From Planctomycetota bacterium (GTDB lineage Bacteria > Planctomycetota > PLA2): DNA of 64,000 bases. The stretch spans positions 124,001 to 188,000 of the forward strand of contig JAJFFF010000051.1 in assembly GCA_021776785.1 (NCBI GenBank), in the 5' to 3' direction. Shown here in pieces: positions 30,323 to 50,929 of this stretch. Both the position numbers and the translations under genes were made by a program. How positions within the stretch are numbered: position 1 is the first letter of the stretch; the number at the start of each line of letters is the position of its first letter. A model generated the notes under the pieces. It ran no database searches. It worked only from the letters and a program-made list of their open reading frames with translations, and was not told where the DNA came from.

Positions 30323-30763
30323 GGCTGCCGGTCTGACGCCGGCTCCAAAACCGTCCGCGATCCGCTGGCGGCGGTCGTGCGCCCCCGCTCCGGTGGCGCT
30401 GTATCAAAACCGCACGGGATCGGGCGTGAGGACTCGAGCTATCCCCATAAGTCCTTTTGACTAAAGAAGTTAAGCGTCGGTTGGGTGGGCGCTACCTTTT
30501 CGTAACTTAAGGTACGAAGTTTGCTTAATGGGAGTCAGCATGTGGTCTCCTTTGGACTTCATCGATCTCGAAGGCCGGAATCCCGCCGGTCAGGCCGAGA
30601 GACGGTCTGCGGACTTTGCGCAGATTGCAGTTCGGCTGTTTACAGGCGGGGAGCGGTTTATTAACTTTCGCGTTCCGCTGGGCATTCCCAGGATCAAGGC
30701 ACCGTTGCGACGGGTGAGCGGTCCTTTCTGGGTGCGTGCATCGGCATGAAAAGGAGTGGTGGC
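30323..30763. other. 440-base intergenic region
   Basis: Between coaX and the first lipoprotein. The part around 30450-30530 is richer in A and T than its surroundings and contains TACCTT...AAGGTA (about 30493-30514), a small inverted repeat. A frame is open from 30528 to 30749 (see next entry). I see no known riboswitch pattern. Confidence 0.4.
30540..30749 (+). CDS. Doubtful 69-residue small protein
   Basis: An open frame with an ATG at 30540 that has GGGAG six bases upstream; a second ATG at 30528 has none. The product (MWSPLDFIDLEGRNPAGQAE...) has no membrane segment or known motif, and it overlaps the start region of the next gene only slightly. It may be a chance frame. Confidence 0.25.
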   Translation: MWSPLDFIDLEGRNPAGQAERRSADFAQIAVRLFTGGERFINFRVPLGIPRIKAPLRRVSGPFWVRASA

Positions 30764-32932
30764 ATGAAGGCACTTTTGTCCTTCGGTATGACGAGCCTCA
30801 AACGATGGACCGGCTTTGCCGTGATCGTGGCGTCGACGGCGTTGAGTTCCGGTTGCGGAAGCGGCGGCGGTGGTGGTTCAGAAGCGCGATTCGATCCGAT
30901 CGAAATTGCGTTGGTCCGCGTAGAGCCGGGTAACGGTGAAAGCTCCGTGCCGCGCAACCGCGTCATCCGCATGATTTTCAACACCGACGTGTTGCCGGAA
31001 TCGGTAACCGACCAATCGGTGATTATTCGTACCGGCGGTACGTTCCAGACCCGTCCGGTCGGAACGTTCCTCATCTCCGCCAACGTCATCGAGTTTGATC
31101 CGACCGTCACGCAGGCGGGTGGTTCAAACGCGATCGGTTTCGAAGCGGGCGCCCAGGTTCTCATCGAGATCCCGTTGCTCGTTCCGAACGACAACCGCCC
31201 GTTGACGAACTTCATCCAAAACATCGAGGGCAACGCGATCGCGTTGACTTTGACGGGTGGTTCCACAACGTCGGCGTTTGAGACAAACGTGTTCACGACC
31301 GGCTCCGGCTGGGACGATCCGATTCCCGGCCCTCCGGGCGTACTCGGCCTCGAGTTCACCCCCGGCCCGAACGGGGTCGGCCAGGTGCCGTCAAGCGCGG
31401 CGGTCACGATCGTGTTCTCCGAGCCGATCAACCCCGGCTCCGTGATCTTGGGCGAGAACATCTTCCTCACCAACAACACACCGACGTCGCCGCTCTTCCG
31501 TCAGGATGTACCGAGCGTGACGTTTTTCGATGGTTCGCTTACCCGCGCGACGTTTCTTCCGGTGTTCGGCTTCGGACAAGGGCCGTTCAACGTGCTCGTG
31601 AACTTCATTGATCCCTTGGATCCGACCAAGTTCACGCCGAACGCATTGCCCCGCGACCTCGCGGGCAACCCGGTCCAGAACTTCACGTTCTTCCAGACTT
31701 TCGACACGCAGTTCGATCCGAACACCGTGAACACAGGGCTGGTTATTGAGGACTACGACACCAACGGTCGACGTGATCCCTCCGGCACCGATGCGGTGTG
31801 GAGCGATGACGCGACCTTCCCGTTCTCGCTTGTCGCCCAACCGATCTCAACGCGTCTCGCTACAGCGGGCGTGCAAGCGATCGTGTTCCAGGGTGGCGCG
31901 AACTCGGACCTAAACAACCCCAACACCGCACCCGTCGGTTCGCCGCCTGCTGGCGTCCCGGACCCGCGCGTGGGTGAAGAGGACTACTGCCCGAACGCGA
32001 ACCCGCTGCTCGGCCCGGACGTGCCGATCGGCCCGCCGAACCCGCCGACGTCAGACGGTCGTCGTCAGCTCAACCTGTACCGTCAGGGTGAGATCGGCGG
32101 AAACGGCACCATCATTTGTTCCGGCTGGGGCCCCGAAAGTGACGCGACGTTTGCGACCACGTATCCGAACGTGTCGGTGCGCATCGGTCACAAGCAGCCG
32201 GGTACCAGTTTTGCGAACGGCTTGATGTCGGATCAGTTCGACGTCAACGGCTTTGTGACCGTGGTCAATTCCACGACTTACAGCGTTCCGCAGTCGGCCG
32301 AAATTAACGGCGGCCTGCTCAACGACGGTTTCGAGGAATGGCCGGACTTCGATACGTTCTTCGACTACGACGGCATGAGCGATCTCATCATCGATGTCGA
32401 GGCGGAAGAGGGCGGCACGTTCCAGACGAACCGAACGTTCCTCGGCGTGTCTCAGCTTTCTGGTGGTCCCACCTGTAGCTGCAACACGATCTTTATGGGT
32501 TCGTGCAACCAGAACACTGCGATGGGCCTGCGTCGCGCGGACGGCATCTTCGGAAGCGACAGCCTTGTGCCGGCGCCTTCGGCCGCTGTCTCGAACCCGT
32601 CCCCGGCCGTCACGATCATGCAGTTCGAACTTGCCAAGATCCGTTCGGACGCACTTTCGCGTTACTACGACACGGGCGTGACCGAGCCGGACTACCTCTC
32701 GCCGATCATTGCCCCGATCGTCCAGGACGGTGGCGCTGCGGTCGAGTTCATGTGGGCTGGCTCAGCGGACGGAATCGTCGATGACGTTCCGTTCACGTCC
32801 GATATCAATGCGCTCGACGGTTTCCGGTTCATCCGGTACTCCGTGATCTTGCGCTCTAACTTCTTCACCGGCGCACGAGCGGTTGTTTTCCGCCTCGAGG
32901 TGCCTTTCACGTTCACGGATGAAGACAACTAG
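30764..32932 (+). CDS. Large lipoprotein with Ig-like (Big_5 type) domains
   Basis: 722 residues with a lipobox: a hydrophobic signal ending ASTALSSGC, acylated Cys31, then a short poly-Gly spacer. The start is the ATG at 30764, with AAGGAG eight bases upstream. Two Ig-like modules of the bacterial Big_5/SbsA type are suggested by VEPGNGESSVPRNRVIRMIF and VPSSAAVTIVFSEPINPGSV, each with a 'xxFxxPI/V' strand. Several cysteines in the second half (EDYCPNANP, GPTCSCNTIFMGSC) may form disulfides. It is coupled to a second lipoprotein 29 bases downstream. Likely outer-membrane or surface; function unknown. Confidence 0.75.
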   Translation: MKALLSFGMTSLKRWTGFAVIVASTALSSGCGSGGGGGSEARFDPIEIALVRVEPGNGESSVPRNRVIRMIFNTDVLPESVTDQSVIIRTGGTFQTRPVGTFLISANVIEFDPTVTQAGGSNAIGFEAGAQVLIEIPLLVPNDNRPLTNFIQNIEGNAIALTLTGGSTTSAFETNVFTTGSGWDDPIPGPPGVLGLEFTPGPNGVGQVPSSAAVTIVFSEPINPGSVILGENIFLTNNTPTSPLFRQDVPSVTFFDGSLTRATFLPVFGFGQGPFNVLVNFIDPLDPTKFTPNALPRDLAGNPVQNFTFFQTFDTQFDPNTVNTGLVIEDYDTNGRRDPSGTDAVWSDDATFPFSLVAQPISTRLATAGVQAIVFQGGANSDLNNPNTAPVGSPPAGVPDPRVGEEDYCPNANPLLGPDVPIGPPNPPTSDGRRQLNLYRQGEIGGNGTIICSGWGPESDATFATTYPNVSVRIGHKQPGTSFANGLMSDQFDVNGFVTVVNSTTYSVPQSAEINGGLLNDGFEEWPDFDTFFDYDGMSDLIIDVEAEEGGTFQTNRTFLGVSQLSGGPTCSCNTIFMGSCNQNTAMGLRRADGIFGSDSLVPAPSAAVSNPSPAVTIMQFELAKIRSDALSRYYDTGVTEPDYLSPIIAPIVQDGGAAVEFMWAGSADGIVDDVPFTSDINALDGFRFIRYSVILRSNFFTGARAVVFRLEVPFTFTDEDN

Positions 32933-32961
32933 TGGCTCGCGGTATTGACTGGAGTGAGTGG

Positions 32962-35900
32962 ATGAAGAGATTGACACTGCTACCGCGCGTTGCGGTGCTC
33001 GCGGTCTTGACCGGCCTGGCCTCATGCGGAGGTGGAGGACCCGGTCTACCGCCCCTTAGCGTGGTGCTGTTTAACTTTGCTCCTGGGTTCGCCGGCGTTC
33101 CGCTGAACGCGCCTTTGGAGCTGACGATGAGTGCCCCGGTCGACGCCGCTTCGGTGACGGCTGACTCGGTTCGCATCTTTACGACGACAACGACGACGGC
33201 GGAGCCCGACCCGGGCGCCCCGGCCATCGGCAAATATCAGGTGTCGGGCAACCGCATCGTGTTTCAGCCCCGTCTGCCGCAGAACGCGGACTTGAGTGAC
33301 GCGGGCCTGCGGATCGGGTTCACGTACGCAGTACAGGTTCCGGCGTCACCCGACGTCATCGAGCCGGTGCGAACCGTCGAGCGTGATCCGAACGTCGTTA
33401 GTTACAGCGAATTTTTCACGACGGTGAACCACACGATCTTGCCGGCCCCCGGCGATATCACGGCGGTCCCGAACCTCAACTCGTTGAACCGTTTCTTCAT
33501 CGATCTCTTCGATGAAACAAACAGCTTCGGCGCCGACCCCTGCCCGCGCGATCTTTTGCCGGCGCAGGACCGCGACTCGCCCCAGGTCATCGATACCGAT
33601 CCCGACGAGGGCGAAGGCGGTTTCGGAACGATCACGGGTATCGTGGAAGGTCTCGGCACGGCGTTTGTCCGTCTCGACCCGATCACGGTGGAATTCTCCG
33701 AGCCGATCGGGCCGTGGCGCATCCGTCCCGAGAACATTGTGATTCGCAACACCAACTTGGGTGGTGAAGCGTTCGACCTGTTCTTCTTCTTTACGCAAAA
33801 CTGCGAGCACTCCCGCTTGCAGATCACCGTGTTCGACGCGGACAGTGCGTTCGACCAGGCCTCTGTGCCGCAGGGTCGCTACGTACTTTCGCTGTCGGAG
33901 TTCACAGACCTTGCGGGCAACCCGCTCGTGAACTCGGGCACCTGCATCGCGGACGGCACGTTCCAGCTTTCATTCTCGACCGTTTCCTCGCCGTCTCTGC
34001 CGACCGACATCAACTTGTCGTTTGGCGACGAGAACCAAGACGGCGTCGTTGACTACGGCGGCTTGTCCACCGGCGCCAACAACTCGGCGATCTTGCCGGA
34101 GCACGATCAGCCCTTCCTCGGCGGCTTCGCTGTCGATCATGTGGCCAACCCGTCGCCCAGCACCTCGCCGAAGTCGAGCGCGAACTGGGGTAACACGGCG
34201 TTTTGGACCGGTTGCGAAGTTCGCTACGACAACGGTTTCGACCCCGATAACCCGGGCGACCAAATCGGTTCGGGGTTGCGTCTGCGCGGCGGCACGAACA
34301 CCGGAGCGACGCCGATCATGGCGCCGATCGCGGGCCGTGGTGACGGTCGTTCGGACCCCGCCGGTTCCCTGGACGGTACGGTCGCATCGGCCGAGCCGGG
34401 CAAAGTCGACTTCATCCTGCAGGGCGCAGGCGTGGCCTCGTTCAACACGGGCGACGCGACGACGGGCCCGATTGTCTACCACTTCAACCGGTTCGATCTG
34501 TTAACCGACACGACAACCGGCGAACGTCCGATTCTTACCTACTTGAAGGTAGGGGCCGGCGAGAGTATCTGGCCGATGCTCATCTTCGTCGAGGACGAAG
34601 CGGTCATCACCGGCACGATTGATGTCAGTGGTCGTCCGGGCGAACTTGGTTTCAACGGACTAAACGGAGGTCCTCCGGGCGTTCGGAACCCGGGAGGCCT
34701 GGGCGGGCTGTCCGGTCCGGGTGGTGGTGACGGCGGCGCGGGCGGTTCCGCGACGCTGGGAGCCGATCCGGAGCTGATCAACGGCCAGACCGGAAGTGTT
34801 CCGTTCAACGTGTTGGGCCCGCTCGACGGACTCAGCGAAGCCATGGCAACGATCGCCAACATGGTCACGGGCGGCGGTGGTCACTACGACCCGACGCAGC
34901 CCGAAGAGAACGACCCGACGGTTGGTCTATTCTTCCCCGCCTACCAAGGCGGCGGTGGTGGTGGCCAAGGTTCGGAAGGCACGGAGGGTTCAGACTTCAA
35001 CAACCCGCCCTCGGGCGGCGGCTCCGACCAGGGCGCTTCGGGCAGCCGCATCGGATCTGACGCTGGCTTTGCCGAGGATGGCATTCTCGCGACCGGCGGC
35101 GCCGGCGGCGGCGGTGGCGCGGCGGATGATGATGCTCCGCAGATTAACGACCCGGACGCAATTGCCAATGCGGAGGACGACGGCGGTGGCGGTGGCGGCG
35201 GCGGTGCAGGATTTTTCGGAATGACCTGCGGCGGCGACATCATCTTCGGCATCCTCGATTTCGGTGCGGATCCGGAAGACCCGGCCGATGACACGATCGT
35301 CTTTGCGGAAATCCGCGCGGTCGGTGGCCGCGGCGGCTCGACCTACGACATGGTCTTCGGCACTCCGCCGCAGCCCGGTGCTGGTCCCGACCCCGACATC
35401 ACACAGGGTGTCGGTAGCGGTGAAGCCGGTGGCGGCGGCGGCGGTGGTGGAATTTGTTTCATCTCCGGTGGGGAAGTCACGGTCAACTCGCTGTCAATGT
35501 TTGCCTTTGGCAAGCGCGGCGGTAACTCGGAAGACCTTGAAGGACGCGGACCTGGGTTCCAAGGTGGCAACGGCGGTGGTGGTGAGATCGTCATGCTCGA
35601 CTCGACCGGCATTGCGGCCGCTATTGAACTTTCCGGACCGTCCGTAGAGATCGTTCCGAACGTTTTCCGCGACTTAGATGATGACGGCATCAATGATCTG
35701 ACGGCTGCTGAAATCATGGATCGCTCGGAGATGAGCGGCACGATTACCGTGAGCACCGGCATCTACGGTGATGCGGATCGCGAACCGTTGTTTGGCACCA
35801 CGCGCATCGTTACGGAATTCTTCGACACGATGTCGGACTCGGTTTCGTACGACGCGATTCGTGTGCTTTCCAACGCACCGCGTTTCCCGTACTCGGTGGC

Positions 35901-36339
35901 GGATCCGGCGATGCGCACGATGCGTGTCTTCTTGGACGTGACCCAGGTGGGCGCGGGCGGTTTGCCCGACCTGTCGACGGAAGATCCGGCGACGGGGTCG
36001 CTCATCGGACCTGAGGGTGCGACGTTTGAAGCGGGCTTGCACTTTGACCAGGACACAGGTCTCACGACCGGTGTTGCAGAGTTCGATTCCCGTTCGCTGA
36101 TTCCGGCCAACTCGGCGTTGCTCGGTAAGCGTTTCGCGCGTGTTCGCATTCTGTTTGATCTCACGTTGGTTGGTGATCCCGCGGCGTTGCTCGGTAGCTT
36201 TGCTCCGGGCGGCACGGGCGACGTACCGATCGCGGATGATCCCGGAACCGCGGAGATCGAGAACTCACAAGGCAACGTCGACGCGGCGCCGGATGGCGTA
36301 CCCGCGATCGCGGCGGTCCTCGTGCGGTTCACTCCGTAG
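32962..36339 (+). CDS. Very large glycine-rich surface lipoprotein
   Basis: 1125 residues from the ATG at 32962, with GGAG upstream. Lipobox LTGLASC (Cys22). Residues 30-130 are an Ig-like module (PGFAGVPLNAPLELTMSAPV); a second lies near 220-330 (ITVEFSEPIGPWRI). Residues about 570-875 are dominated by glycine runs (for example GGPPGVRNPGGLGGLSGPGG and blocks of eight Gly), interrupted by acidic segments. A beta-rich C-terminal part follows. Such Gly-rich stretches are known in cell-surface proteins but the family is not recognised. A strong terminator follows. Confidence 0.75.
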   Translation: MKRLTLLPRVAVLAVLTGLASCGGGGPGLPPLSVVLFNFAPGFAGVPLNAPLELTMSAPVDAASVTADSVRIFTTTTTTAEPDPGAPAIGKYQVSGNRIVFQPRLPQNADLSDAGLRIGFTYAVQVPASPDVIEPVRTVERDPNVVSYSEFFTTVNHTILPAPGDITAVPNLNSLNRFFIDLFDETNSFGADPCPRDLLPAQDRDSPQVIDTDPDEGEGGFGTITGIVEGLGTAFVRLDPITVEFSEPIGPWRIRPENIVIRNTNLGGEAFDLFFFFTQNCEHSRLQITVFDADSAFDQASVPQGRYVLSLSEFTDLAGNPLVNSGTCIADGTFQLSFSTVSSPSLPTDINLSFGDENQDGVVDYGGLSTGANNSAILPEHDQPFLGGFAVDHVANPSPSTSPKSSANWGNTAFWTGCEVRYDNGFDPDNPGDQIGSGLRLRGGTNTGATPIMAPIAGRGDGRSDPAGSLDGTVASAEPGKVDFILQGAGVASFNTGDATTGPIVYHFNRFDLLTDTTTGERPILTYLKVGAGESIWPMLIFVEDEAVITGTIDVSGRPGELGFNGLNGGPPGVRNPGGLGGLSGPGGGDGGAGGSATLGADPELINGQTGSVPFNVLGPLDGLSEAMATIANMVTGGGGHYDPTQPEENDPTVGLFFPAYQGGGGGGQGSEGTEGSDFNNPPSGGGSDQGASGSRIGSDAGFAEDGILATGGAGGGGGAADDDAPQINDPDAIANAEDDGGGGGGGGAGFFGMTCGGDIIFGILDFGADPEDPADDTIVFAEIRAVGGRGGSTYDMVFGTPPQPGAGPDPDITQGVGSGEAGGGGGGGGICFISGGEVTVNSLSMFAFGKRGGNSEDLEGRGPGFQGGNGGGGEIVMLDSTGIAAAIELSGPSVEIVPNVFRDLDDDGINDLTAAEIMDRSEMSGTITVSTGIYGDADREPLFGTTRIVTEFFDTMSDSVSYDAIRVLSNAPRFPYSVADPAMRTMRVFLDVTQVGAGGLPDLSTEDPATGSLIGPEGATFEAGLHFDQDTGLTTGVAEFDSRSLIPANSALLGKRFARVRILFDLTLVGDPAALLGSFAPGGTGDVPIADDPGTAEIENSQGNVDAAPDGVPAIAAVLVRFTP

Positions 36340-36403
36340 TCGGGTCGGACGCGTGATGGGTCGGCGTGAGCCGATTGATACGCAAGAGAAAATGTAAGAG
36401 CAA

Positions 36404-36437
36404 GGGGCCGCTGGTGATCGCCGGCGGCCTCTTTTTT
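36404..36437 (+). terminator. Rho-independent terminator after the lipoprotein pair
   Basis: GGCCGCTGG (36406-36414) pairs with CCGGCGGCC (36421-36429, one G-U pair) around TGATCG and is followed by TCTTTTTT. It separates the lipoproteins from the radical SAM cluster, whose first ATG is nine bases further on. Confidence 0.88.
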
Positions 36438-36445
36438 CGCCCATT

Positions 36446-37441
36446 ATGAATTTGCCCCCCAAGCTTGGCCTCCACAGAAATCCGGGCGCTTTGTTCGCTC
36501 CGTTTATCGCGCGGGTCTACTTGCGTCGCCCGGAGTTGGCCGCGCTGCTCGCGGTTAAGTACGGCACGTGGCGGGCGGCGATGCGCGCGGCGTTCAACGA
36601 GGTGCTGTTTCGCACGCGTCGGACGCGCGGGTACCGCCTGGTCTCGGTGAACTTCGAAGTCACGAACGCGTGTAACCTTTCGTGCACGATCTGTCCCGTG
36701 AACCATGGGATGCGCCGTAAAAAGGCTGTGGCAAGCCTGGAGATGTTTCAGCGGTTCTTGGAGCAAAACCCCTCGCTCGAATTCGTCATGCTGTTTCAGT
36801 GGGGTGAACCGCTCTTGGTCCGAGAATTGCCAGCCATGATTCGCGCCGCGGCCGATCGCGGGATCAAGACGATGATTACGACCAACGGAACGCTGCTCGA
36901 CGAGACTTGGTGCCAGGACCTGCTCGACGCAGGCCTGACGCGCCTCACGCTTTCCGTTGATGGCGACGAGACGTCCCACCGCGCGATCCGCGGCATCGGC
37001 CTGTCTGAGCTCCGAACCAACCTGCAGCGGCTGCGCCGGATGCGGGACGAACAAGGGTCCAGCATGGGGATCGATGTCTCCATGGTCGTGAACGCGCAGA
37101 CCGGTGCGCATTGGGGCGAAGTCCGTTCGTCGTGGCGCGACATCGCGGATCGCATCCAAGCGATTCCGCAGTTCATGGAAAAGGAGCGCCGCAACCCGTG
37201 TCGGGAGCCCAACCGCGGCAGCATGGTCGTCCTCGCCGACGGCAGCGTGACGGTTTGCTGTGCCGACCCGGAGGGCGACGCGGTCGTCGGCCACGTGGAC
37301 GATGGGCCGCTGCAAGAGCTCCTAAACGGCAAGAAGATGCAGGCGTTTCGTCGGGCGCACTTCACGCGCAAATTCCCGGAGATCTGCCGCGATTGCGGCG
37401 AGTTCGACAACAAGGTCGTGGGACCTCGGTTCGAGCGATGA
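36446..37441 (+). CDS. Radical SAM/SPASM-type protein 1
   Basis: 331 residues. The 4Fe-4S cluster motif CNLSCTIC (C76, C80, C83) lies in a radical SAM barrel, with QWGEPLL and TTNGTLL as the SAM-binding and adjacent strands. The C-terminus carries further cysteines (VTVCCADPEG, CRDCGEF), as in SPASM or twitch domains that hold auxiliary clusters. A basic N-terminal stretch of 65 residues precedes the barrel. It is the first gene of a five-gene set joined by ATGA/GTGA overlaps. The substrate is not known; family members modify peptides, lipids or sugars. Confidence 0.85.
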   Translation: MNLPPKLGLHRNPGALFAPFIARVYLRRPELAALLAVKYGTWRAAMRAAFNEVLFRTRRTRGYRLVSVNFEVTNACNLSCTICPVNHGMRRKKAVASLEMFQRFLEQNPSLEFVMLFQWGEPLLVRELPAMIRAAADRGIKTMITTNGTLLDETWCQDLLDAGLTRLTLSVDGDETSHRAIRGIGLSELRTNLQRLRRMRDEQGSSMGIDVSMVVNAQTGAHWGEVRSSWRDIADRIQAIPQFMEKERRNPCREPNRGSMVVLADGSVTVCCADPEGDAVVGHVDDGPLQELLNGKKMQAFRRAHFTRKFPEICRDCGEFDNKVVGPRFER

Positions 37442-38469
37442 GACGGCTCTACGCGGACATGCTATGGCGCCGTTTGCGCGCGGGCGATTGGCGCTTTCCG
37501 TTTCGTGCGGCGCGCGGCGCCTGGGCAGCGTGGCGGCGCGAAGAGCGGCCGCTGCTTGGCACGCTCATCGTGACGTATCGCTGCGATCTCGTGTGCTCGA
37601 TGTGCGATCTTCCGCGCCGCGGCAATCGCAAGGCGGAGCTCTCGACGCAGGAGTTTTTCGGCGTGCTCGACGGCATGCAAGACCTGGGTGTCTTGGGCGT
37701 CGGGATCACGGGCGGGGAGCCGCTCCTGCGTCCCGATCTCTTAGATATCATCCGCCACGGAACACGCCGCGGCCTGCTCATGCATGTCAACACCAACGGG
37801 ACGCTCATCACGACCGAGATGGCGCACGCCTTTGCCGAGGCGGGAGTCGCCTCGATCAATCTGTCGCTCGACGGACCGACGGCCGAGATCCACGACAAGC
37901 GGCGCGGGCGCGTCGGTTCGTTTGACAACGTGATGCGTGCAGCGGCGCGCCTGATTTCCGTGCCGAAGCGACCGTACCGCGTTGCCATCACATGCGCCCT
38001 GGGGGCCGACAATGCACAAGACGCCGAAGCGGTGCTGGATCGGGCCCGCGACCTCGGGGTGGATCGGGTCGGGTTCATTCCGGTTCACGATTTCCCGGCC
38101 AATCGCGTCACGCCGCTGGATGCGAACGCGGCGCGCATCGTCCGTGATCTCGTCGCGCGCCGCATGACCGATCCGCTGCTCGACAACTCGAAGCAATACT
38201 TGGAGCTGTTCGGGCGCGCCTACCAGGGCAAACCCAACCCGCTGCCGTGTTCGGCCCCGCGCCACAGCGTCGTCGTAGATTGTTTCGGCGCCGTTTTTCC
38301 GTGCGTGCCGCTCAACGCAGCCCGCGACGAAGTGGGGCGCGGCGACGTGCGCGAAGTGTGGCGTTCAAAAACCTATCGCGACGCGCGGGCCGCCCTCAAG
38401 CAGTGCCGCGCGTGCTACTGGAACTGTCACACGGAGATGAACATCGCGCTCAAGAAGGTCGGCGTATGA
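37438..38469 (+). CDS. Radical SAM/SPASM-type protein 2
   Basis: 343 residues starting at the ATG that overlaps the previous stop (ATGA). Cluster motif CDLVCSMC (C49, C53, C56), then GITGGEPLLRPDL and NTNGTLITTEM, the conserved GGEP and following strand. The C-terminal part has C..P-type auxiliary cysteines: LPCSAPRH, DCFGAVFPC and QCRACYWNC. Sequence is distinct from protein 1, so it is not a recent duplicate. SPASM proteins of this plan include PqqE/MftC-like peptide maturases and heme d1-type enzymes; which applies here is unknown. Confidence 0.87.
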   Translation: MRRLYADMLWRRLRAGDWRFPFRAARGAWAAWRREERPLLGTLIVTYRCDLVCSMCDLPRRGNRKAELSTQEFFGVLDGMQDLGVLGVGITGGEPLLRPDLLDIIRHGTRRGLLMHVNTNGTLITTEMAHAFAEAGVASINLSLDGPTAEIHDKRRGRVGSFDNVMRAAARLISVPKRPYRVAITCALGADNAQDAEAVLDRARDLGVDRVGFIPVHDFPANRVTPLDANAARIVRDLVARRMTDPLLDNSKQYLELFGRAYQGKPNPLPCSAPRHSVVVDCFGAVFPCVPLNAARDEVGRGDVREVWRSKTYRDARAALKQCRACYWNCHTEMNIALKKVGV

Positions 38470-39659
38470 GCGTGCTCCCGGCCAAGATCCTCGACCGCGT
38501 CGCGGCGGGCGCGATTTTGCGCGCGGCGGGACCGATGCGGGCGTTGCGCGAGGCTTGGTCGGGCTACGAGAAGATCGACGCCGTGCGCGAGATCGTGTGC
38601 GTGAAATTTTGGGGCATCGGCAACGCGGCTCTCATGCTGCCCGCGCTCCATGCGCTGCGGCGGCGTTATCCGCGTGCGCGGCTCAGTGTCGTCACACTGG
38701 CGACCAACGCGCCGATCTTTCACGGTGTTGCCGATCGCGTGTTGACCGTTCGCAGCCGCCCGCTTCGCGCGTGCGTGACCGATCTGACGTCGGTGTTGGC
38801 CCGCTTGCGGCGCACGAACATCGACCTCGCGATCGACTTTGAGCAGTTCGTAAAGACATCGCAGCTGCTTTTGTTTGTGGCGCGTGCACGGCAGATCTTC
38901 GCATTCGATACGCCGGGCCAGAAGCGCGCCGGGTTGGCGCATGTTCGCGTTCCCTACGCGAACGATCGTCACACGGGCGACAGTTTTTTTGATCTCGTGC
39001 GGGCGGCCGGCGTCACCGACCCGCGCTACGAAGCCGGTGGGCTCACGCCCGAGCGGTCGGCGGCCGCCCGCCTCGCGTGGCGGCTCCCGAGCGCGGATAA
39101 CGAGAACTTGGTCGTGCTGCATCCCGGATCGGGTGACAACTTCCCGGGGCGTCGTTGGCCCGCACAGTACTTCGGCGAGGTAGCGCGCCGCCTGCGCACG
39201 GCGGGCTACACGGTCGTCGTCACCGGATCGCACCCCGAGCGCGCGCTCGCGGCCAAGGTGATGGCTGCCGCCGGGCCCGGTGTGCGCAACTTCGCGGGCC
39301 GGCTGACGCTGTCTGAGCTCGTGGCGTTGTTAGCGCGTTCCGCGCTCTTGATCTCAAACGACACCGGCCCGGTGCACTTGGCGTCCGCTCTGCACGTCCC
39401 GGTCGTGGCGATGTTTGGCCCGAACACGCCCGAGCTGTACGGGCCACGATCGCCGGGCAGCGTAGCGTTTTACGAACCGCCGCCCTGTGCGCCGTGTATT
39501 ACGAACTACAACTACAAGACGAGCCGCTGTCGTAATCCGGTGTGTATGCAACGCATCGATGTGGAACGCGTGACCGCCGCGGCGATGAATGCGCTGGAGA
39601 CGAGGCGCTCCGATCGCGCTTGTTTGTCGGTGGATCCGTGCGGAGAGCGGTTGGCGTGA
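38466..39659 (+). CDS. GT9 glycosyltransferase (heptosyltransferase-like)
   Basis: 397 residues, start ATG at 38466 overlapping the stop of the radical SAM gene. It has the two Rossmann halves of GT-B enzymes: KFWGIGNAALMLPALHALRR at the N-terminus, and HPGSGDNFPGRRWPAQYF and ISNDTGPVHLASAL, the ADP-sugar-binding region of the ADP-heptose:LPS heptosyltransferase family. It lengthens the usual 330-350 with an N-terminal stretch and a Cys-bearing tail (CAPCITNYNYKTSRC). The donor sugar and acceptor are not known. Cytoplasmic, facing the membrane. Confidence 0.85.
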   Translation: MSVLPAKILDRVAAGAILRAAGPMRALREAWSGYEKIDAVREIVCVKFWGIGNAALMLPALHALRRRYPRARLSVVTLATNAPIFHGVADRVLTVRSRPLRACVTDLTSVLARLRRTNIDLAIDFEQFVKTSQLLLFVARARQIFAFDTPGQKRAGLAHVRVPYANDRHTGDSFFDLVRAAGVTDPRYEAGGLTPERSAAARLAWRLPSADNENLVVLHPGSGDNFPGRRWPAQYFGEVARRLRTAGYTVVVTGSHPERALAAKVMAAAGPGVRNFAGRLTLSELVALLARSALLISNDTGPVHLASALHVPVVAMFGPNTPELYGPRSPGSVAFYEPPPCAPCITNYNYKTSRCRNPVCMQRIDVERVTAAAMNALETRRSDRACLSVDPCGERLA

Positions 39660-41770
39660 CGCGCGGCGTTGCGATCTTGCTCGTGGGGACCTTGACGTTG
39701 GTCGCGCATCTGCGCGCCCGCGACAACCCGTTCGTCTTCTTTGACGACCCGCGTTTTGTAACACTCAATCCGCACATCGAGTCCACCGACGATCCGGCGC
39801 GCTTTTTCACCGACCTTTCGACGGTGGCGGCCCCTGGGTCTACGACCCAAGACATTTACCGCCCTCTGCGGACGCTGTCGTACGCGTGGATTTTCGACGC
39901 CGGCGGCCTCGACCCGAAGCTGTTTCACAGCGTGTCCGTGTTTCTCCATGCGCTCGTCGCGGCGTTGCTCGCGTTGCTGTTGCTGCGCGCAGGCATCGCA
40001 CCATGGGGAGCGGCGGTCGGCGCCTTAGCGTTTGGCATTCATCCACGAACCGTGGAGGTGACGGCGTGGGTCTGCTCGCTCGGCGACATCTTGTGCGGGC
40101 TCTTCATGGTGTTGTCGATGCTTTGCTACGCGTCGTCGCGGCGCGTCCCGGGCGCCATCGGGGCCGTGCTGTGTTTCGTCGTCGCGCTCTTTTCCAAGGA
40201 GCACGCGTTGGTCCTTCCCGGCCTATGGGTCGCGTGGGACTTGTGGGTTCGCAAGGAGCGGCCGACGACGCCCGCTATCGCCTGGCGTGCGGTGGCGCCT
40301 GGCTTGGTTGTGATCGTCGCGTTCTTGTGGTGGCGTGATCACGTCGGGACAGAGTTCCAGCAACTGTCCGAACCTCTCCGCGGCACCGCGCTCAGCCGCA
40401 TCAAGACCATGCTGTCGGGCATGGGGTGGTACGGCGCCACGACACTGTGGCCGCACCCGCCGACGTTTCAAGCGCGCGTCTCGCCCGACGCTTCTTGGGT
40501 GAGTCTGTCCGTTTTGTCAGGCATCGCCGTTACCGCCGGGCTATTCGCCTGGTGGCGGTGGGGGGAACGCCGCGAGCGTGCCGGCGTCGCGTGGTTTTTG
40601 CTCGCGCTCATTCCGGTCAGCAATGTCATCGCTCCGCTGAAAGTGCCGACTGCCGATCGCTTCTTGTACTTCTCGCTTATGGGGCTCGCGCTCGCGTTCG
40701 GAGCGCTCGTCGCGCGCCGCGGCTGGCGCGCATCGAGTGTGGGCGTGCTCGCCGTGCTTTCGCTCCTCACGGTGCATCGCATCGACGATTGGAGCTCGGA
40801 CACTTCGTTGATCGCGGCCGGCAAACGGGTGCATCCGCGTTCGATCATGTTGCTCTGGGCCGAGGCCGCGGAGAAAGCCCAGCGCTCGCAAAAGTTGTTC
40901 GTGGCGGGCGACGGTGTCCGCGCGATGGAAATCGGCGCGGAAGCCGAAACGCTCTACGCGAATTTTTTCCGAAATGCGGAGCTCCCCGACGAACTCAAAG
41001 CGCGGATCGAAGTGGCGGACTTGCAGTATGAGACCGGCAAGTGGCTCCAGATTTATGACCCGCAGGAGCGGTGGCGCATCGCGATCAGCCGTGCGATGGA
41101 AAACTACAATTTCGCGCGGCAGATGCAGCAAAACAAAGTCGGACGCGTCGTCGAGGCCCAAGAAATCTGGGTTGCCCATCGCGTCGTCGAGCTCGCGGTG
41201 ATGTTGGCCGAACCGCGCAACAAAAACTTCGGCCAAACGGTCGCCGCCGGAATGAGCGCGCTCTCGTTTCTCAACGACAAGGGGTTCGACACCAACTTGA
41301 GTTTTGCCAAACTTCGGTTTGCCGAGGCGTCGCACCCTTCGATTCGCGTCGGCAAGCCCGAGCGTGCGCGGGAGATTTTCAACAACGTCGAACAGCGGCT
41401 GCGCAAGGAGGAGGCGCGCGGCCAGTCCGTCCAGTTCATGTTGGCACAGACTTACTACTTCCGCTCGATCCTGAAGGACCAGCCCTACGACCGGAAAGGC
41501 CTGGACCAGGCGATCAAACTTTACGACCAGGCGGCGGTGGAGAATCGAACCTGGCGCCGCAGTCACCTCAACAAGGGGCGCACGCTGCGCACGATTGGGC
41601 AGTTGTTCGACGACCTCGCATCAGCCCAGGGTGCGGTCCGGTTTTTGGAATACATGCTGAACACCGACGCGAAGAAACACCCGCGTCTGTATCCCAAGAG
41701 CTTGATCGAGGACATCAAGGGCGAGCTGCAGTTAGCGCAGGCGCAGGTGGGGCGGCTCACGCCGCAATGA
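39656..41770 (+). CDS. TMTC-like polytopic membrane protein with TPR domain
   Basis: 704 residues from the GTG at 39656, which overlaps the preceding stop (GTGA). About ten membrane segments fill residues 1-370, opening with FFDDPRFVTLNPHI and then YRPLRTLSYAWIF and FHSVSVFLHALVAALLALLL, a pattern of the bacterial TMTC/GT-C relatives whose first loop carries an acidic pair (DD). The following 330 residues are helical and TPR-like (KLFVAGDGVRAMEIGAEAET, LDQAIKLYDQAAVENRTWRR). These proteins are proposed or known protein O-mannosyl transferases in eukaryotes; the bacterial substrates are uncertain. Confidence 0.75.
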   Translation: MTRGVAILLVGTLTLVAHLRARDNPFVFFDDPRFVTLNPHIESTDDPARFFTDLSTVAAPGSTTQDIYRPLRTLSYAWIFDAGGLDPKLFHSVSVFLHALVAALLALLLLRAGIAPWGAAVGALAFGIHPRTVEVTAWVCSLGDILCGLFMVLSMLCYASSRRVPGAIGAVLCFVVALFSKEHALVLPGLWVAWDLWVRKERPTTPAIAWRAVAPGLVVIVAFLWWRDHVGTEFQQLSEPLRGTALSRIKTMLSGMGWYGATTLWPHPPTFQARVSPDASWVSLSVLSGIAVTAGLFAWWRWGERRERAGVAWFLLALIPVSNVIAPLKVPTADRFLYFSLMGLALAFGALVARRGWRASSVGVLAVLSLLTVHRIDDWSSDTSLIAAGKRVHPRSIMLLWAEAAEKAQRSQKLFVAGDGVRAMEIGAEAETLYANFFRNAELPDELKARIEVADLQYETGKWLQIYDPQERWRIAISRAMENYNFARQMQQNKVGRVVEAQEIWVAHRVVELAVMLAEPRNKNFGQTVAAGMSALSFLNDKGFDTNLSFAKLRFAEASHPSIRVGKPERAREIFNNVEQRLRKEEARGQSVQFMLAQTYYFRSILKDQPYDRKGLDQAIKLYDQAAVENRTWRRSHLNKGRTLRTIGQLFDDLASAQGAVRFLEYMLNTDAKKHPRLYPKSLIEDIKGELQLAQAQVGRLTPQ

Positions 41771-42864
41771 ACGTGGGACGCCTGGCCTCACTCTTCGGTT
41801 CCATTCGCCGCGGGACAGCGCGCGACAGTTTGCCGTACAAGCTGACGCTGATTCTCACGCGCCGTTGCCCGACGAAGTGCTCGTTTTGCTCCATCTGGAA
41901 GACTCCATCGCCGGATGAGATGACGCCCGAGGAGTGGGATCGCGTATTTTCGTCGGCCCCGAACACGAACTGGGCGAACCTCAGTGGCGGCGAGCTCTTT
42001 CAGCGCCCCGACATCGGGGCGATTGTCGATGCGCTCGTGAAGCGGATGCTGAATCTGTACGTCGTGGACTTCCCGACGACCGGGTACTTCCCAGAACGCG
42101 TCGTCGAGACGTGCGAGCGATTGGTCGCCGGCGGCGTGCGCAAAGTGCTGGTGACGGTGAGCCTCGACGGTCCGCCCGCGTTGCATGACGAGCTGCGCGG
42201 GCGCGCGGGCGCTTTCGAACAGGCATGCAAAGCCATGAACGTGATTCGGGACGCGCGTTTGCCGCGCGTGCGCGCCTTTTTTGGAAGCACCGTCTTTCCG
42301 GAAAACCATGGGTCGATGGACGAGATGATTGTGGAAGCGCGGAGCCGCATCGCCGGGCTCACGGCGCGCGACTTTCATTTCAACATCGGTATGGAGAGCG
42401 GACACTACTACCAAAACATCGGTGCCGAGCGCACGCCACCCGAAGCGTCTCTCGCTACGCTGGAGCGCTACCGGCGCAAGGGCGTGGACCCGGTTTCGAT
42501 GCTCGAACGCGCCTACCAGCGGCGCGTTCCCGAGTACTTAAGGACCGGACGATCGCCGGTGCCGTGCGCCGCCTTGCGCGCGTCCGTCTTCGTCGACCCG
42601 CAGGGCATTGTGTATCCGTGCTCGATCTATAGCCGGCCGCTCGGTGGGCTGCGTGAGTTTGACTACGACTTGGGCGCCCTTCTGCGGCGCGACGAAGTGC
42701 GCGTAGCACGCCGCGCCGTCGTCGATGATCTGTGCCCCGGTTGTTGGAGCCCGTGCGAGGCGTACCAAAGCCTATTCCAAAAATTCGCCGGGAGTGCGCG
42801 GCGTGAAGTTCTCGTCCCGGCTCAAGCGAACGGGAAAAAGAACGGCAACGCGACCGTCGCGTAA
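41767..42864 (+). CDS. Radical SAM/SPASM-type protein 3
   Basis: 365 residues from the ATG at 41767, overlapping the previous stop. Cluster motif CPTKCSFC (C34, C38, C41); NLSGGELFQRPDI is the GGE motif. C-terminal cysteines in VPCAALRAS, VYPCSIYS and DLCPGCWSPCEAY mark a SPASM-like auxiliary domain. It is the third, separate radical SAM gene of the cluster. Its last 43 bases overlap the end of the convergent transporter gene. Confidence 0.85.
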   Translation: MNVGRLASLFGSIRRGTARDSLPYKLTLILTRRCPTKCSFCSIWKTPSPDEMTPEEWDRVFSSAPNTNWANLSGGELFQRPDIGAIVDALVKRMLNLYVVDFPTTGYFPERVVETCERLVAGGVRKVLVTVSLDGPPALHDELRGRAGAFEQACKAMNVIRDARLPRVRAFFGSTVFPENHGSMDEMIVEARSRIAGLTARDFHFNIGMESGHYYQNIGAERTPPEASLATLERYRRKGVDPVSMLERAYQRRVPEYLRTGRSPVPCAALRASVFVDPQGIVYPCSIYSRPLGGLREFDYDLGALLRRDEVRVARRAVVDDLCPGCWSPCEAYQSLFQKFAGSARREVLVPAQANGKKNGNATVA

Positions 42865-44573
42865 GCGGCGAGCAGCAACTGCAACGGCAAGCCGACGCGC
42901 ACGTAGTCACCAAACGTGTATCCGCCCGGACCGAGAATGAACGCGTTCGTCTGGTAGCCGATAGGCGTGGCGAACGACGCCGACGCAGCAAACGCGACCG
43001 CGAACACGAACGGCTCCGGTCTCAAGGATAGTTCGCCGGATGTGGCGATCGCGATGGGAACCATCAACGCGGCGGCGCCCGAGTTGGATACAAACTCGGT
43101 CAGAATGGACGTGAGCAGATAGACGCCGCCGAGTACCGCGTAGGGGCCCAGGTCGCGCGTGATGCCGATGACGGCGCGCGCCACGTGCCCGTCGAGCTTG
43201 GTGATGTGTAGCGCCGAGCCCAAGGTGATGGCGCCTGCCAACAATCCCAAAATGTTCCAGTCGATCTCGCGTGTGGCGCGGTCCAACGAGAGGCATCTTG
43301 TGGCGAGGCAAAGACCGGCGGCCGCAACCGCGAGGAGCGGAAGACTGAACGACGTGAGCGCCGCGCATAGGACAAACGTGGCGAGGATCCCGATCGCCAC
43401 CGGCGCGCGGCGTCGCAGCGCGACGTGTTCATCCACGCCGACCAAAAGGATCAATCCTTGGCGCGTGCGCAACCGAGCGACGTCTTCCGGCCGTCCCTGC
43501 ACTAAGATGACGTCACCCGTTTCGAGCGGCAGGTTGAGATAGCCCTGTCGCAGGTGAGCGCCGCGCCGTTGGAGCGCGAGCGCGATGACCCCGGCGGTTC
43601 GGTTCAGCGCGATCTGACCAAGTGTGCGCCCTAACAACACGGAACCAGGTGTGACGACTGCTTCGGCGAACGTCGTTCCGGTGGGCGCGGAGTCGTAGTA
43701 ACGCGCCTCCAGGCCTAGGTCGCGTCGCAGCGCCACGATCACTTCGGGCGGGCCGCGCAGATCGATCACATCGTCCGGCTGCAGGATCTCGTCCTCGCAC
43801 TGTTGAATCGCTTCTTCGCCGCGCAGGAGGCGGAGGACGCGGATTTTTTTGCCTGCGCGCGCCGCGAGACTCGACACCGGAATGCCGACGGCGGGGCCTT
43901 GTTTCGGCACGCGCAACTCGCTGACAAACTCAAACGTCTTGCCTTTCGTGATCGACGACACGGTCGCGCGTGCGGGCAAGAGGTGGGGCGCGACAAACCA
44001 AAGGTACGTAAGGCCCACGCCGCAAAACGTGAGACCCATCGGCAAGAAGTCCAAGAAGTGAATCGTGAACGACTGGCTCGCCAGCTCCTTGACGAGCACG
44101 TTCGTTGACGTGCCGATCAGCGTCATCGTGCCGCCTAAGATCGATGCGTAGCTCAAAGGGATTAGGAGCTTGCTCGGTGCGATGTCGAGGCGCGCCGCGG
44201 CGGCCAAGAGAATCGGGAGCATCAAGACAACGACCGACGTGTTGTTGAGCAGCGACGAGGCCAGCGCGGTGGCGACGGTCGTCACGAAGAGAACGCGTGG
44301 TTTGGAGTCCTTGCTCCAACGCACAAGCTGTTGTTCGAGTGCGCCGACGACGCCCGTCCGAATCAGACTCGCGGAAACGACATAAAGCGAGCCCACGAGG
44401 ACGACCGCCGGGCTCGCGAACGCAGCCAGCGCGGCGCGCCCCTCCAGCACGCCCGAGAGGCCGAGCACGGCAATGATCCCGATGCCCGTCACGCCTAATG
44501 GCAGCGCGTTGGTTGTGAACAGGGCGAGCGCGGCAACCAGCGTCCCCGTTACGATCATCTGGTCGGTACTCAT
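42822..44573 (-). CDS. SLC13/DASS-family transporter with TrkA-C domains
   Basis: 583 residues, about 12 membrane segments. The two halves contain SLLNNTSVVVLMLPILLAAA and LTEFVSNSGAAALMVPIAIA, with the SNT/SNS signatures of sodium-coupled dicarboxylate or sulfate carriers. Between them, cytoplasmic residues about 200-380 form two RCK-C (TrkA-C) domains (DVIDLRGPPEVIVALRRDLG, DVILVQGRPEDV), which may bind a ligand. The substrate is not clear (sulfate, a carboxylate or other anion). It is second in an operon after the carbamoyltransferase, with an ATGA overlap, and converges on the radical SAM cluster. Confidence 0.85.
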   Translation of the reverse strand: MSTDQMIVTGTLVAALALFTTNALPLGVTGIGIIAVLGLSGVLEGRAALAAFASPAVVLVGSLYVVSASLIRTGVVGALEQQLVRWSKDSKPRVLFVTTVATALASSLLNNTSVVVLMLPILLAAAARLDIAPSKLLIPLSYASILGGTMTLIGTSTNVLVKELASQSFTIHFLDFLPMGLTFCGVGLTYLWFVAPHLLPARATVSSITKGKTFEFVSELRVPKQGPAVGIPVSSLAARAGKKIRVLRLLRGEEAIQQCEDEILQPDDVIDLRGPPEVIVALRRDLGLEARYYDSAPTGTTFAEAVVTPGSVLLGRTLGQIALNRTAGVIALALQRRGAHLRQGYLNLPLETGDVILVQGRPEDVARLRTRQGLILLVGVDEHVALRRRAPVAIGILATFVLCAALTSFSLPLLAVAAAGLCLATRCLSLDRATREIDWNILGLLAGAITLGSALHITKLDGHVARAVIGITRDLGPYAVLGGVYLLTSILTEFVSNSGAAALMVPIAIATSGELSLRPEPFVFAVAFAASASFATPIGYQTNAFILGPGGYTFGDYVRVGLPLQLLLAAYATVALPFFFPFA

Positions 44574-46291
44574 GCGTTACCGCCCATCGTAGTGCGTCGG
44601 CCGGTCTTCTCCACAATGCGATTTCCGATGACCAGCGCGTCTAAGGCGGAACGGTCGAGAACCGCGAGTGCGTCTTGGGCTGTCCGCGCGATCGGTTGTC
44701 CACGCACGTTGAGCGACGTGTTCAACAGGATCGGGACCCCCGTCCGTGCGTGAAAGCCCTCCAGAACCGCGCGCAGGGGGCCGTCGGCGACGGTCTGAAC
44801 GCGCGCGGTGCCATCGACGTGGACCACGGCCGGTGCCCGCTGCCGTGTTTGCTCACGGGCGGCAGCCGCAAACAGCATGTGCGGCGACGGCGCATCGATT
44901 TCGAACCATGCCGCGGCCTCCTCGTCCAATACGGCCGGCGCGAGGGGCCGAAAACCTTCCCGGAACTTCACTGCGGCATTGATGTGGTCGCGGGTGGTCG
45001 CTTGACGCGGGTCACCGAGAATCGAGCGGCCGCCGAGCGCACGCGGGCCAAACTCCATCCGGCCCTGGACCCATCCGATCACCTTGCCGTTCGCGAGCGC
45101 GGTGGCGGCCCAGTCCGCCGGATCGTCCACGTCTGTCACGACGACGTCAGGGTAAGTAGACAGGGCCCTGTCGCACTCGGTCGCGTCCACGGCGTCGCCC
45201 CAGAACACGTCGGTCAACGCCACGCGCGGAGCCCCGGCGACCAGAGCCCCTGCGCCGACGGCGGCGCCCGCGTCGCCCGCGGCCGGAAACGCAAACACCG
45301 TGTTGTAGCCCGCCTCGCACCGTAACCGGCCGTTGAGCGCGCAGTTTAGGAACAAACCGCCCGCGAGTCCTAGGTGCGTGCTGCCGGTGGCCGCACGCAA
45401 ACGCCGCGCGACGGCGAGAACCACGTCCTCGATCACGCGCTGCAGCGCAAACGCGAGGTCCTCATGGGCCGGCGCGAGAGGCGATTCGGGCGCCCGCGGG
45501 GGGCCAAACAGCGCTTCGAACGCGGGGCCTGCCATCCGCATCTTGCCGAGCGGATACGCGAAACGATCCAGCGCGACGCGGTACAGATCTTCGGGATGGG
45601 CTTGGACGAGCGGCTTGAACGCGGCGACGAGGTCGTCGCGCCCAAACGCCGCGAGCCCCGTCGTCTTGCCCTCCCCGCTGTCGGGCCGAAACCCGAGATG
45701 CTGGGTCACGGCCGCATAGACTTTGCCCAGACTGTGCGGATAGGACTGCCGCGCCAGGCACGACAGTTCGCCCCGGCGGGCATGCCATGTGGCTGTCGCC
45801 GTCCACTCGCCCATGCCGTCGGCGGTGAGGATCGCGGCGTCGTCGGCGGGGCCAAACAGCCACGCCTGGGCCGCGTGCGCGCGATGGTGGGCGACGTGCG
45901 TGATCGGCGCGTGGATGTCGAGGGCCGCGAGGTCCCGGCTCAGGCCGCGGACCGTGCGCAGGTACTGCAGGCGGGGCGGCAGGCCGGCTGGGCGCTCGCG
46001 CAGAAACGGGAGCGAGCGCGGGAACCGCCGCAAGACATAGGCGAACTTGCGACCGCGTCCCATGCCGCGCTTCCAGCAGAACGCAACCTGATCGATGTCT
46101 CGCGGTTCCAAGCCGGCGAAGCGCAAAGCCGCAGCGATCGCGCCACGTGGAAACGCGGGCGAATGCTTGGTCGCATCGAAGCGTTCTTCCTCGGCAGCGA
46201 ACACCAGTCGCCCGTCCAAAAAAAGCGCCGCTCCGGCGTCATGACTGTAAGCGTTGAGTCCTAGGACTACCCGGTTCTTGGCCGTCTTCAC
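44570..46291 (-). CDS. Carbamoyltransferase (NodU/CmcH/TobZ family)
   Basis: 573 residues. Uses carbamoyl phosphate and ATP to O-carbamoylate sugars or other hydroxyls. The N-terminal Kae1-like half has GLNAYSHDAGAALFLDGRLV, HVAHHRAHAAQAWLF (metal-binding histidines), TADGMGEWTATA, and the GEGKTTGLAAFG block. The C-terminal half has GRMEFGPRALGGRSILGDPR, a family hallmark. It is divergent from the kinase at 46360 with 68 bases between. Its neighbour on the far side of the transporter is a sugar-related cluster, which fits a role in carbamoylating a glycan (inference). Confidence 0.9.
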   Translation of the reverse strand: MKTAKNRVVLGLNAYSHDAGAALFLDGRLVFAAEEERFDATKHSPAFPRGAIAAALRFAGLEPRDIDQVAFCWKRGMGRGRKFAYVLRRFPRSLPFLRERPAGLPPRLQYLRTVRGLSRDLAALDIHAPITHVAHHRAHAAQAWLFGPADDAAILTADGMGEWTATATWHARRGELSCLARQSYPHSLGKVYAAVTQHLGFRPDSGEGKTTGLAAFGRDDLVAAFKPLVQAHPEDLYRVALDRFAYPLGKMRMAGPAFEALFGPPRAPESPLAPAHEDLAFALQRVIEDVVLAVARRLRAATGSTHLGLAGGLFLNCALNGRLRCEAGYNTVFAFPAAGDAGAAVGAGALVAGAPRVALTDVFWGDAVDATECDRALSTYPDVVVTDVDDPADWAATALANGKVIGWVQGRMEFGPRALGGRSILGDPRQATTRDHINAAVKFREGFRPLAPAVLDEEAAAWFEIDAPSPHMLFAAAAREQTRQRAPAVVHVDGTARVQTVADGPLRAVLEGFHARTGVPILLNTSLNVRGQPIARTAQDALAVLDRSALDALVIGNRIVEKTGRRTTMGGNA

Positions 46292-50385: not shown

Positions 50386-50470
50386 CCGGCCTTCGGACGC
50401 CCCTTGGGAGGCCGTTCGCGGCGGGGTTGCCCAGGGGACGTCCGCGCGCTACGATCCCACCACCGCACCC

Positions 50471-50929
50471 ATGTCGAATCCCCCTGTCGTGAAGGGTGGA
50501 AGAGAGGCGATCCACCTTTCTTTCGCTGCCAATATGCGCTTCGTTCGCCCCGTGCGGCACTTTATCAAGGCGCTATGCGAGCTTGCTCAGTACGGCAGGG
50601 ATGAATTGGAAACCATTTCATTGGTGATCACCGAGTTGCTCAACAACTCGATCGAGCATGGCTGCAACAAGCCGGAGGACGAGATCGACGTGCGTTTGAT
50701 CGTCACCGATTCACGATTTCGGTTTGCCGTTACCGACCCCGGCCGCGGCGGCAAGGATTTTGCCGATCAGGCGCTGGACCGCGCGAAGCTCACTCCGAAC
50801 CTGGAAGATCCGCGCGGGCGCGGGTTGTTCTTGATCCGAACCTATATGGACGAATTTGCGGTGCAATACGACCCCAACGTCGGGACAACGTTTGTCGTTG
50901 CCAAGTCTCTGCAAGCGAGGGAATCGTGA
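50471..50929 (+). CDS. RsbW-like anti-sigma regulatory ATPase
   Basis: 152 residues with a GHKL ATPase fold. ISLVITELLNNSIEHGC is the N box with the Mg-binding Asn, VTDPGRGG the G1 box, and DPRGRGLFLIRTYMD the G2 region. It is a HATPase_c_2 protein of the RsbW/SpoIIAB type, a Ser kinase or anti-sigma factor that is released when its antagonist (STAS) is unphosphorylated. Its stop overlaps the next start (GTGA). No anti-sigma antagonist gene is near. The ribosome-binding site is weak. Confidence 0.85.
   Translation: MSNPPVVKGGREAIHLSFAANMRFVRPVRHFIKALCELAQYGRDELETISLVITELLNNSIEHGCNKPEDEIDVRLIVTDSRFRFAVTDPGRGGKDFADQALDRAKLTPNLEDPRGRGLFLIRTYMDEFAVQYDPNVGTTFVVAKSLQARES

Follow-up and report, generated by a model that had tools for sequence, protein, structure and literature searches.

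A conserved Planctomycetota cassette of radical SAM enzymes and glycosyltransferases proposed to build an unusual envelope glycan

Genes encoding three radical SAM enzymes, a GT9-type glycosyltransferase and a TMTC-like membrane glycosyltransferase form a conserved cassette in Planctomycetota, and the evidence leans towards a role of this cassette in building an unusual envelope glycan or glycoconjugate whose sugar is radically tailored. The cassette was analyzed in a stretch of 64,000 nucleotides (the window) from a Planctomycetota MAG of 5.0 Mb in 57 contigs.

Operon architecture

The five genes lie on the forward strand in the order rs1 (36446..37441, 331 aa), rs2 (37438..38469, 343 aa), gt9 (38466..39659), tmtc (39656..41770, 704 aa) and rs3 (41767..42864, 365 aa), and form an operon in which each of the four junctions is a 4-nt overlap. 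The junction sequence is ATGA throughout, except at gt9/tmtc, where it is GTGA; tmtc has a GTG start codon. Facing the operon on the reverse strand, genes for a carbamoyltransferase of the NodU/TobZ family (44570..46291) and an SLC13/CitMHS transporter with TrkA_C (42822..44573) are likewise coupled by a 4-nt overlap, and the transporter gene overlaps rs3 tail to tail by 43 nt. Recomputing the coordinates and junctions reproduced the five 4-base-overlapping genes and the ATGA-type coupling of the facing pair, both of which had been described in the original prediction. A precursor peptide gene in the operon was ruled out, as there is no room between the overlapping genes.

Pfam searches matched Radical_SAM (PF04055) in rs1, rs2 and rs3, with the SPASM model additionally in rs1 and rs2, and Glyco_transf_9, CitMHS plus TrkA_C, and Carbam_trans_N plus _C in the products of gt9, the transporter gene and the carbamoyltransferase gene, respectively. 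None of the NCBIfam matches listed for the seven proteins reached its cut-off, and the rs3 entry of a further NCBIfam search contained no family above cut-off. A promoter scan found no sigma-70-like site, which says little because the genome is very GC-rich. Every protein family concerned was already known, while literature searches on the gene set returned nothing relevant; the original prediction had likewise not recognized the set as a described pathway.

Conservation of the cassette in Planctomycetota

Clusters of three or more of the five genes were found in 13 Planctomycetota families, some of which were pieced together from two contigs, and in several gene orders. In f1, the family of the window, and in f2, the neighboring family of the same taxonomic order, the arrangement is lipoA-lipoB-rs1-rs2-gt9-tmtc-rs3 with a facing carbamoyltransferase gene, where contigs allow. 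Families f28 and f57 have rs1-rs2-gt9-tmtc-rs3 with lipoA upstream, as does f66, except that rs1 was not detected there. The order is rs1-gt9-rs3-rs2-tmtc in f17, f20 and f64 and the same minus rs2 in f41 (rs1-gt9-rs3-tmtc); rs2 is absent from some relatives and is, for example, missing between rs1 and gt9 in one genome (G003). Orders that include a carbamoyltransferase gene (carb) are rs1-carb-gt9-tmtc in f48, rs2-carb-gt9-tmtc-rs3 in f68, carb-gt9-tmtc in f35, and rs1-carb-gt9 plus gt9-tmtc on a second contig in f5.

Among 197 sampled genomes, most of which lack the cassette, rs1 was present in 37, gt9 in 43 and rs3 in 37, and the pairs rs1-gt9, rs1-rs3 and gt9-rs3 occurred together in 33, 32 and 34 genomes, respectively (hypergeometric p between about 1e-24 and 1e-26, with kinship left uncorrected). 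The two genes of the rs1-gt9 pair were adjacent in 26 of the 33 genomes carrying both; in the remaining seven they were on separate contigs, several of them cut at contig ends. rs1 was nearly always found as one strict copy per genome. The best named relatives in the rs1 profile search were Planctomycetota MAGs, and the relatives of the window among the genomes compared belong to this phylum as well. This profile recovered relatives, whereas a single-protein scan of genome contigs with rs3 gave no match, and a search for the GT9 in plasmids gave matches only below 60% identity.

The recurrence of at least three clustered core genes in 13 families and the co-occurrence of rs1, gt9 and rs3 indicate that the genes are not scattered in relatives, as they could be if the local order were accidental, and the gene neighborhood is not due to chance. 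The operon structure and its recurrence across families support the view that rs1-rs2-gt9-tmtc-rs3 is one functional unit.

Radical SAM enzymes

All three radical SAM proteins have the CX3CX2C motif of the superfamily in their radical SAM core, and this motif is invariant in every aligned row. In rs1 the cluster motif is C76-x3-C80-x2-C83 and there are five conserved C-terminal cysteines (C252, C271, C272, C314 and C317); rs3 has C34/C38/C41 and likewise five (C267, C285, C323, C326 and C330), and rs2 has five or six, namely the invariant C271, C289, C323, C326 and C330, with C282 in 10 of 11 sequences. SPASM peptide maturases are characterized by two auxiliary clusters with about seven to eight cysteines and by a precursor encoded nearby, a pattern that was not found here.

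The predicted model of rs1 (pLDDT 91.8) best matched the structures of BtrN (9e-14), BlsE (3e-13), SkfB (6e-13) and DesII (7e-13), three of which are sugar or cyclitol enzymes. BtrN, the 2-deoxy-scyllo-inosamine dehydrogenase, is a Twitch enzyme with one four-cysteine auxiliary cluster that oxidizes an aminocyclitol (PMC9012708). The modeled fold of rs1 resembles that of BtrN and other Twitch enzymes, and four of its cysteines coincide with the C-terminal cysteines of BtrN in the alignment, which together suggest a Twitch-like C-terminal domain. Sequence identity between rs1 and BtrN is only about 16%. rs1 further differs in a helical extension at its N terminus and in its genomic setting, next to the genes of two more radical enzymes and a pair of glycosyltransferases. 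Of the three radical enzymes, it is the one most like BtrN; the nearest solved relative of rs2 is BlsE, with SkfB and PqqE also matched, and that of rs3 is SkfB, a peptide enzyme. In rs2 and rs3, a Twitch-like assignment is suggested by the cysteine pattern only. Taken together, the relationships of rs1 to BtrN, rs2 to BlsE and rs3 to SkfB favor a predicted action of the radical enzymes on a sugar.

An Asp-to-Asn clade of GT9 proteins

The product of gt9 is a member of the GT9 family with a heptosyltransferase fold, as it matched PF01075 at 104 bits, 3tov at 4e-32, WaaF at 3e-25 and WaaC at 9e-16. It has the D-T/S-G/A-P-x-H motif in common with WaaC, WaaF and TibC, and its four invariant C-terminal cysteines are comparable to the iron finger of TibC, a GT9-type enzyme that heptosylates autotransporter proteins (PMC4358343). 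Unlike these enzymes, however, it has Asn53 in place of the catalytic-base Asp: solved GT9s have Asp at the site where cassette GT9s read WGxGN, and every cassette GT9 that is readable at this site has Asn. Cassette GT9s form one clade of 29 rows, set apart by a branch supported at 99/98, and the WGxGN clade was found only in cassettes. Three GT9 paralogues in the window's genome retain Asp, and related non-cassette GT9s have mostly Ser, with one Ala and one Asp.

The corresponding residue of WaaC, D13, was reported in all heptosyltransferases reviewed, and the D13A replacement caused a 4688-fold loss of activity (PMC5713226). Since the cassette GT9 is without the usual Asp base of the LPS heptosyltransferases WaaC and WaaF, its acceptor or its catalytic chemistry should differ from that of WaaC. 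Its NCBIfam scores are below the cut-offs. GT9 enzymes may also accept other donors. Alternatively, loss of the base could have rendered the GT9 inactive.

TMTC-like membrane glycosyltransferase

No Pfam model matched the TMTC-like protein, not even at E ≤ 1, and the protein's name is based on motifs and fold. It contains D30 D31, Y68 R69 P70, D144, K181 E182, R335 and Y338, of which D30 D31, R69 P70, D144, K181 E182 and R335 show little or no variation. In a manual reading against PMC7801869, these residues correspond to motifs M1, M2, M3, M4 and M7 of human TMTC, that is, to the DD, YRP, RxD-position Asp, KE and RxxY motifs of the TMTC/GT105 O-mannosyltransferases, so that five of the seven TMTC motifs are present, with DW and PxxP not established. 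The predicted model (pLDDT 78) best matched Pmt4, AftD, OST and Pmt1-Pmt2, although the GT-C fold match was weak (best E 5e-4, TM about 0.3). Like TMTC/GT105 enzymes, the modeled protein has a helical C-terminal part following the membrane part; it differs from them in being bacterial and in having no Pfam match. The invariant D30 D31, which would lie in the first loop of a GT-C fold, is as expected of a TMTC-like GT-C enzyme. Between GT9 and this protein, the cassette would be equipped to transfer sugars on both sides of the membrane.

Carbamoyltransferase and SLC13 transporter

Both domains of the NodU/TobZ family, PF02543 and PF16861, were found in the carbamoyltransferase, together with HHRAH at residue 135, which fits the HHxxH metal motif, and DGMGE at residue 158. 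In f5, f35, f48 and f68 its gene is part of the operon and has the same orientation, so that the link to the cassette does not depend on f1 and f2. In contrast, the profile search located the SLC13 gene near the cassette only in f1; the transporter was therefore rejected as a general component and is probably accessory. The original interpretation accordingly stands with regard to a single unit without a precursor peptide, sugar transfer at two faces and the inclusion of the carbamoyltransferase, but not for SLC13 as a general part. It did not include the GT9 Asp-to-Asn clade, the putative BtrN-like type of radical enzyme with a single auxiliary cluster or the linked exported Ig-like proteins.

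Exported Ig-like proteins encoded near the cassette

Upstream of rs1 on the same strand are lipoA (30746..32932), encoding a lipoprotein with a Big_5 Ig-like domain, and the adjoining lipoB (32932..36339), encoding a Gly-rich lipoprotein with a Big_5 match. A hairpin with a 14-bp stem and a T run (36402..36437, +), resembling an intrinsic terminator (z -5.2), lies between lipoB and rs1, and hairpins were seen by eye at the corresponding place in four other loci (L061, L065, L046 and L047). lipoA and lipoB were therefore rejected as members of the operon, and their unit and the cassette need not be co-transcribed.

Exported Ig-like proteins adjoin most complete cassettes and are enriched near the cassette, and their type differs between families. 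In f1, f2, f28, f57 and f66, lipoA precedes the cassette, in most cases accompanied by lipoB or by a weak match to it, and DUF1573 proteins are encoded downstream of tmtc in f17, f20, f41 and f64. In genome G077 the sole DUF1573 match is at the cassette, as are two of the three in G031 and three of the four in G182. In humans, Ig-like domains are modified by TMTC1-4 and TMEM260 (PMC11292533); this analogy suggests that the Ig-like lipoproteins, with LipoA and LipoB as candidates in the window, and the DUF1573 proteins may be acceptors. We tentatively propose, as a possibility on the doubtful side, a bacterial counterpart of TMTC-type O-glycosylation, in which the TMTC-like enzyme would put a sugar on Big_5 or DUF1573 Ig-like envelope proteins. 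The glycan would be made by the GT9 lacking the usual Asp base and tailored by as many as three radical SAM enzymes, joined in certain families by the carbamoyltransferase.

Proposed function and alternative explanations

For the envelope glycan favored here, we infer the substrates, step order, product and acceptor as follows. GT9 would transfer a sugar, perhaps heptose or a related one, to a lipid- or protein-linked acceptor in the cytoplasm; the three radical SAM enzymes would abstract a hydrogen atom from the glycan or a sugar precursor, with subsequent oxidation or epimerization; and the carbamoyltransferase, where present, would carbamoylate a hydroxyl. On the outer side of the membrane, a sugar carried on polyprenyl phosphate would be passed by the TMTC-like GT-C enzyme to an exported acceptor, for which the neighboring gene products, Ig-like lipoproteins or DUF1573 proteins, are plausible candidates. 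In favor of this reading are the operon, the recurrence and co-occurrence of its genes, the fold and cysteines of rs1, the Asn clade of GT9, the GT-C matches of the TMTC-like model, the carbamoyltransferase gene within the operon in four families, the Ig-like neighbors, and the envelope context, with LpxC in 38 of 40 relatives and an RfaE/HldE-like kinase in the window's genome.

Points against this reading are the kinship of rs3 to a peptide enzyme and of rs2 to both sugar and peptide enzymes, the possibly inactive GT9, the possible use of other donors by GT9 enzymes, the weak GT-C fold match, an RfaE/HldE kinase match below its cut-off, the variation of Ig-like neighbors between families, and the terminator-like hairpin of lipoA/lipoB.

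The radical enzymes could instead modify a peptide or protein, in RiPP-like or envelope protein maturation, with GT9 and the TMTC-like enzyme glycosylating the same protein. The matches of rs3 and rs2 to SkfB and of rs2 to PqqE, the precedent of TibC (PMC4358343) and the exported proteins encoded next to the cassette are consistent with this explanation. It is nevertheless unlikely, because the operon has no space for a precursor gene, only about 20-45 residues precede the radical SAM core of rs2 and rs3, too few for an N-terminal peptide-recognition domain, the C-terminal cysteines (five, or in rs2 five or six) are fewer than two fully cysteine-bound SPASM clusters need, and the nearest relatives of rs1 are BtrN and BlsE.

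Somewhat less probable still is decoration of the LPS core only, with heptose from GT9, WapO-like carbamoylation, radical tailoring and action of the TMTC-like enzyme on exported LPS, the Ig-like proteins being bystanders. LpxC is present in 38 of 40 relatives, the window's genome has an RfaE/HldE-kinase-like match (344 bits, just under the curated cut-off of 345), and the carbamoyltransferase gene adjoins gt9 in f5, f35, f48 and f68. In the excerpts of PMC8005017, a carbamoyl group on the core heptose of Pseudomonas LPS is assigned to WapO, likewise a carbamoyltransferase encoded with envelope sugar transferases; unlike in the cassette, those excerpts name no radical SAM or TMTC-like enzyme at the WapO locus. 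However, another GT9 of the window's genome, which retains Asp, is encoded near RfaE/HldE-like genes on contig C1, so that synthesis of the basic core need not depend on the cassette enzyme; furthermore, most of the 197 sampled genomes are without the cassette, and the TMTC family is known for protein substrates.

It is improbable that the genes form a biosynthetic cluster whose product is a secreted natural product, a saccharide resembling aminoglycosides or nucleosides. BtrN, BlsE and DesII are enzymes of antibiotic pathways, and NodU/TobZ-type carbamoyltransferases also act in antibiotic-type saccharide pathways, but about one strict rs1 copy per genome in many families differs from the patchy occurrence of antibiotic clusters, no gene for resistance or for dedicated export was found to recur, and the core includes a membrane GT-C enzyme. 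An accidental neighborhood of unrelated genes, to which the facing strand and SLC13, not common to most relatives, might point, is hardly credible given the 13-family recurrence, the several gene orders and the co-occurrence.

In conclusion, the cassette-specific Asp-to-Asn change poses a sharp mechanistic question on GT9 catalysis, and the pairing of the TMTC-like enzyme with exported Ig-like proteins would, if true, make bacterial TMTC-type glycosylation testable. Most known radical SAM enzymes with sugar substrates belong to antibiotic pathways; a conserved envelope cassette that employs as many as three such enzymes would, if true, represent new chemistry on cell-surface glycans.

Region upstream of rs1

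A strong terminator-like hairpin was found at window positions 36402-36437, between the lipoprotein gene lipoB and rs1, the first radical SAM gene of the five-gene cassette, and because it ends approximately 10 nt or less from the rs1 start codon, little space is left for an rs1 promoter. Expression of rs1 might involve read-through, attenuation or a leaderless start. The equivalent position in the related loci L061, L065, L046 and L047 was also occupied by hairpins, as judged by eye.

Neighboring genes and relatives of cassette components

Beyond the carbamoyltransferase gene facing the cassette, the region 46360-52221 encodes a Ser/Thr kinase that also has AAA and TPR parts, followed by what may be an anti-sigma-type ATPase and by a phosphatase of SpoIIE-like type; in f2, a phosphatase resembling this one follows the carbamoyltransferase. 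Here f2 denotes the window's neighboring family within its order.

No cassette was present around the rs1-like genes at L072, L078, L080 and L081 (hosts: Woesearchaeota, Coatesbacteria, one further bacterium and a Planctomycetota MAG), each of which lies within a few kb of a B12-binding radical SAM gene.

In sister GT9 proteins from the non-cassette loci L193, L194, L195, L197, L199, L200, L202 and L125, the catalytic-base position is occupied by Ser, giving WGxGS or a motif resembling it, and several radical SAM genes are located in the vicinity of L125 (Oligoflexia).

In genome G036, an rs3 relative (L058) shares a single contig with glycosyltransferase-like genes and a carbamoyltransferase, together with a possible B12-type radical SAM gene.
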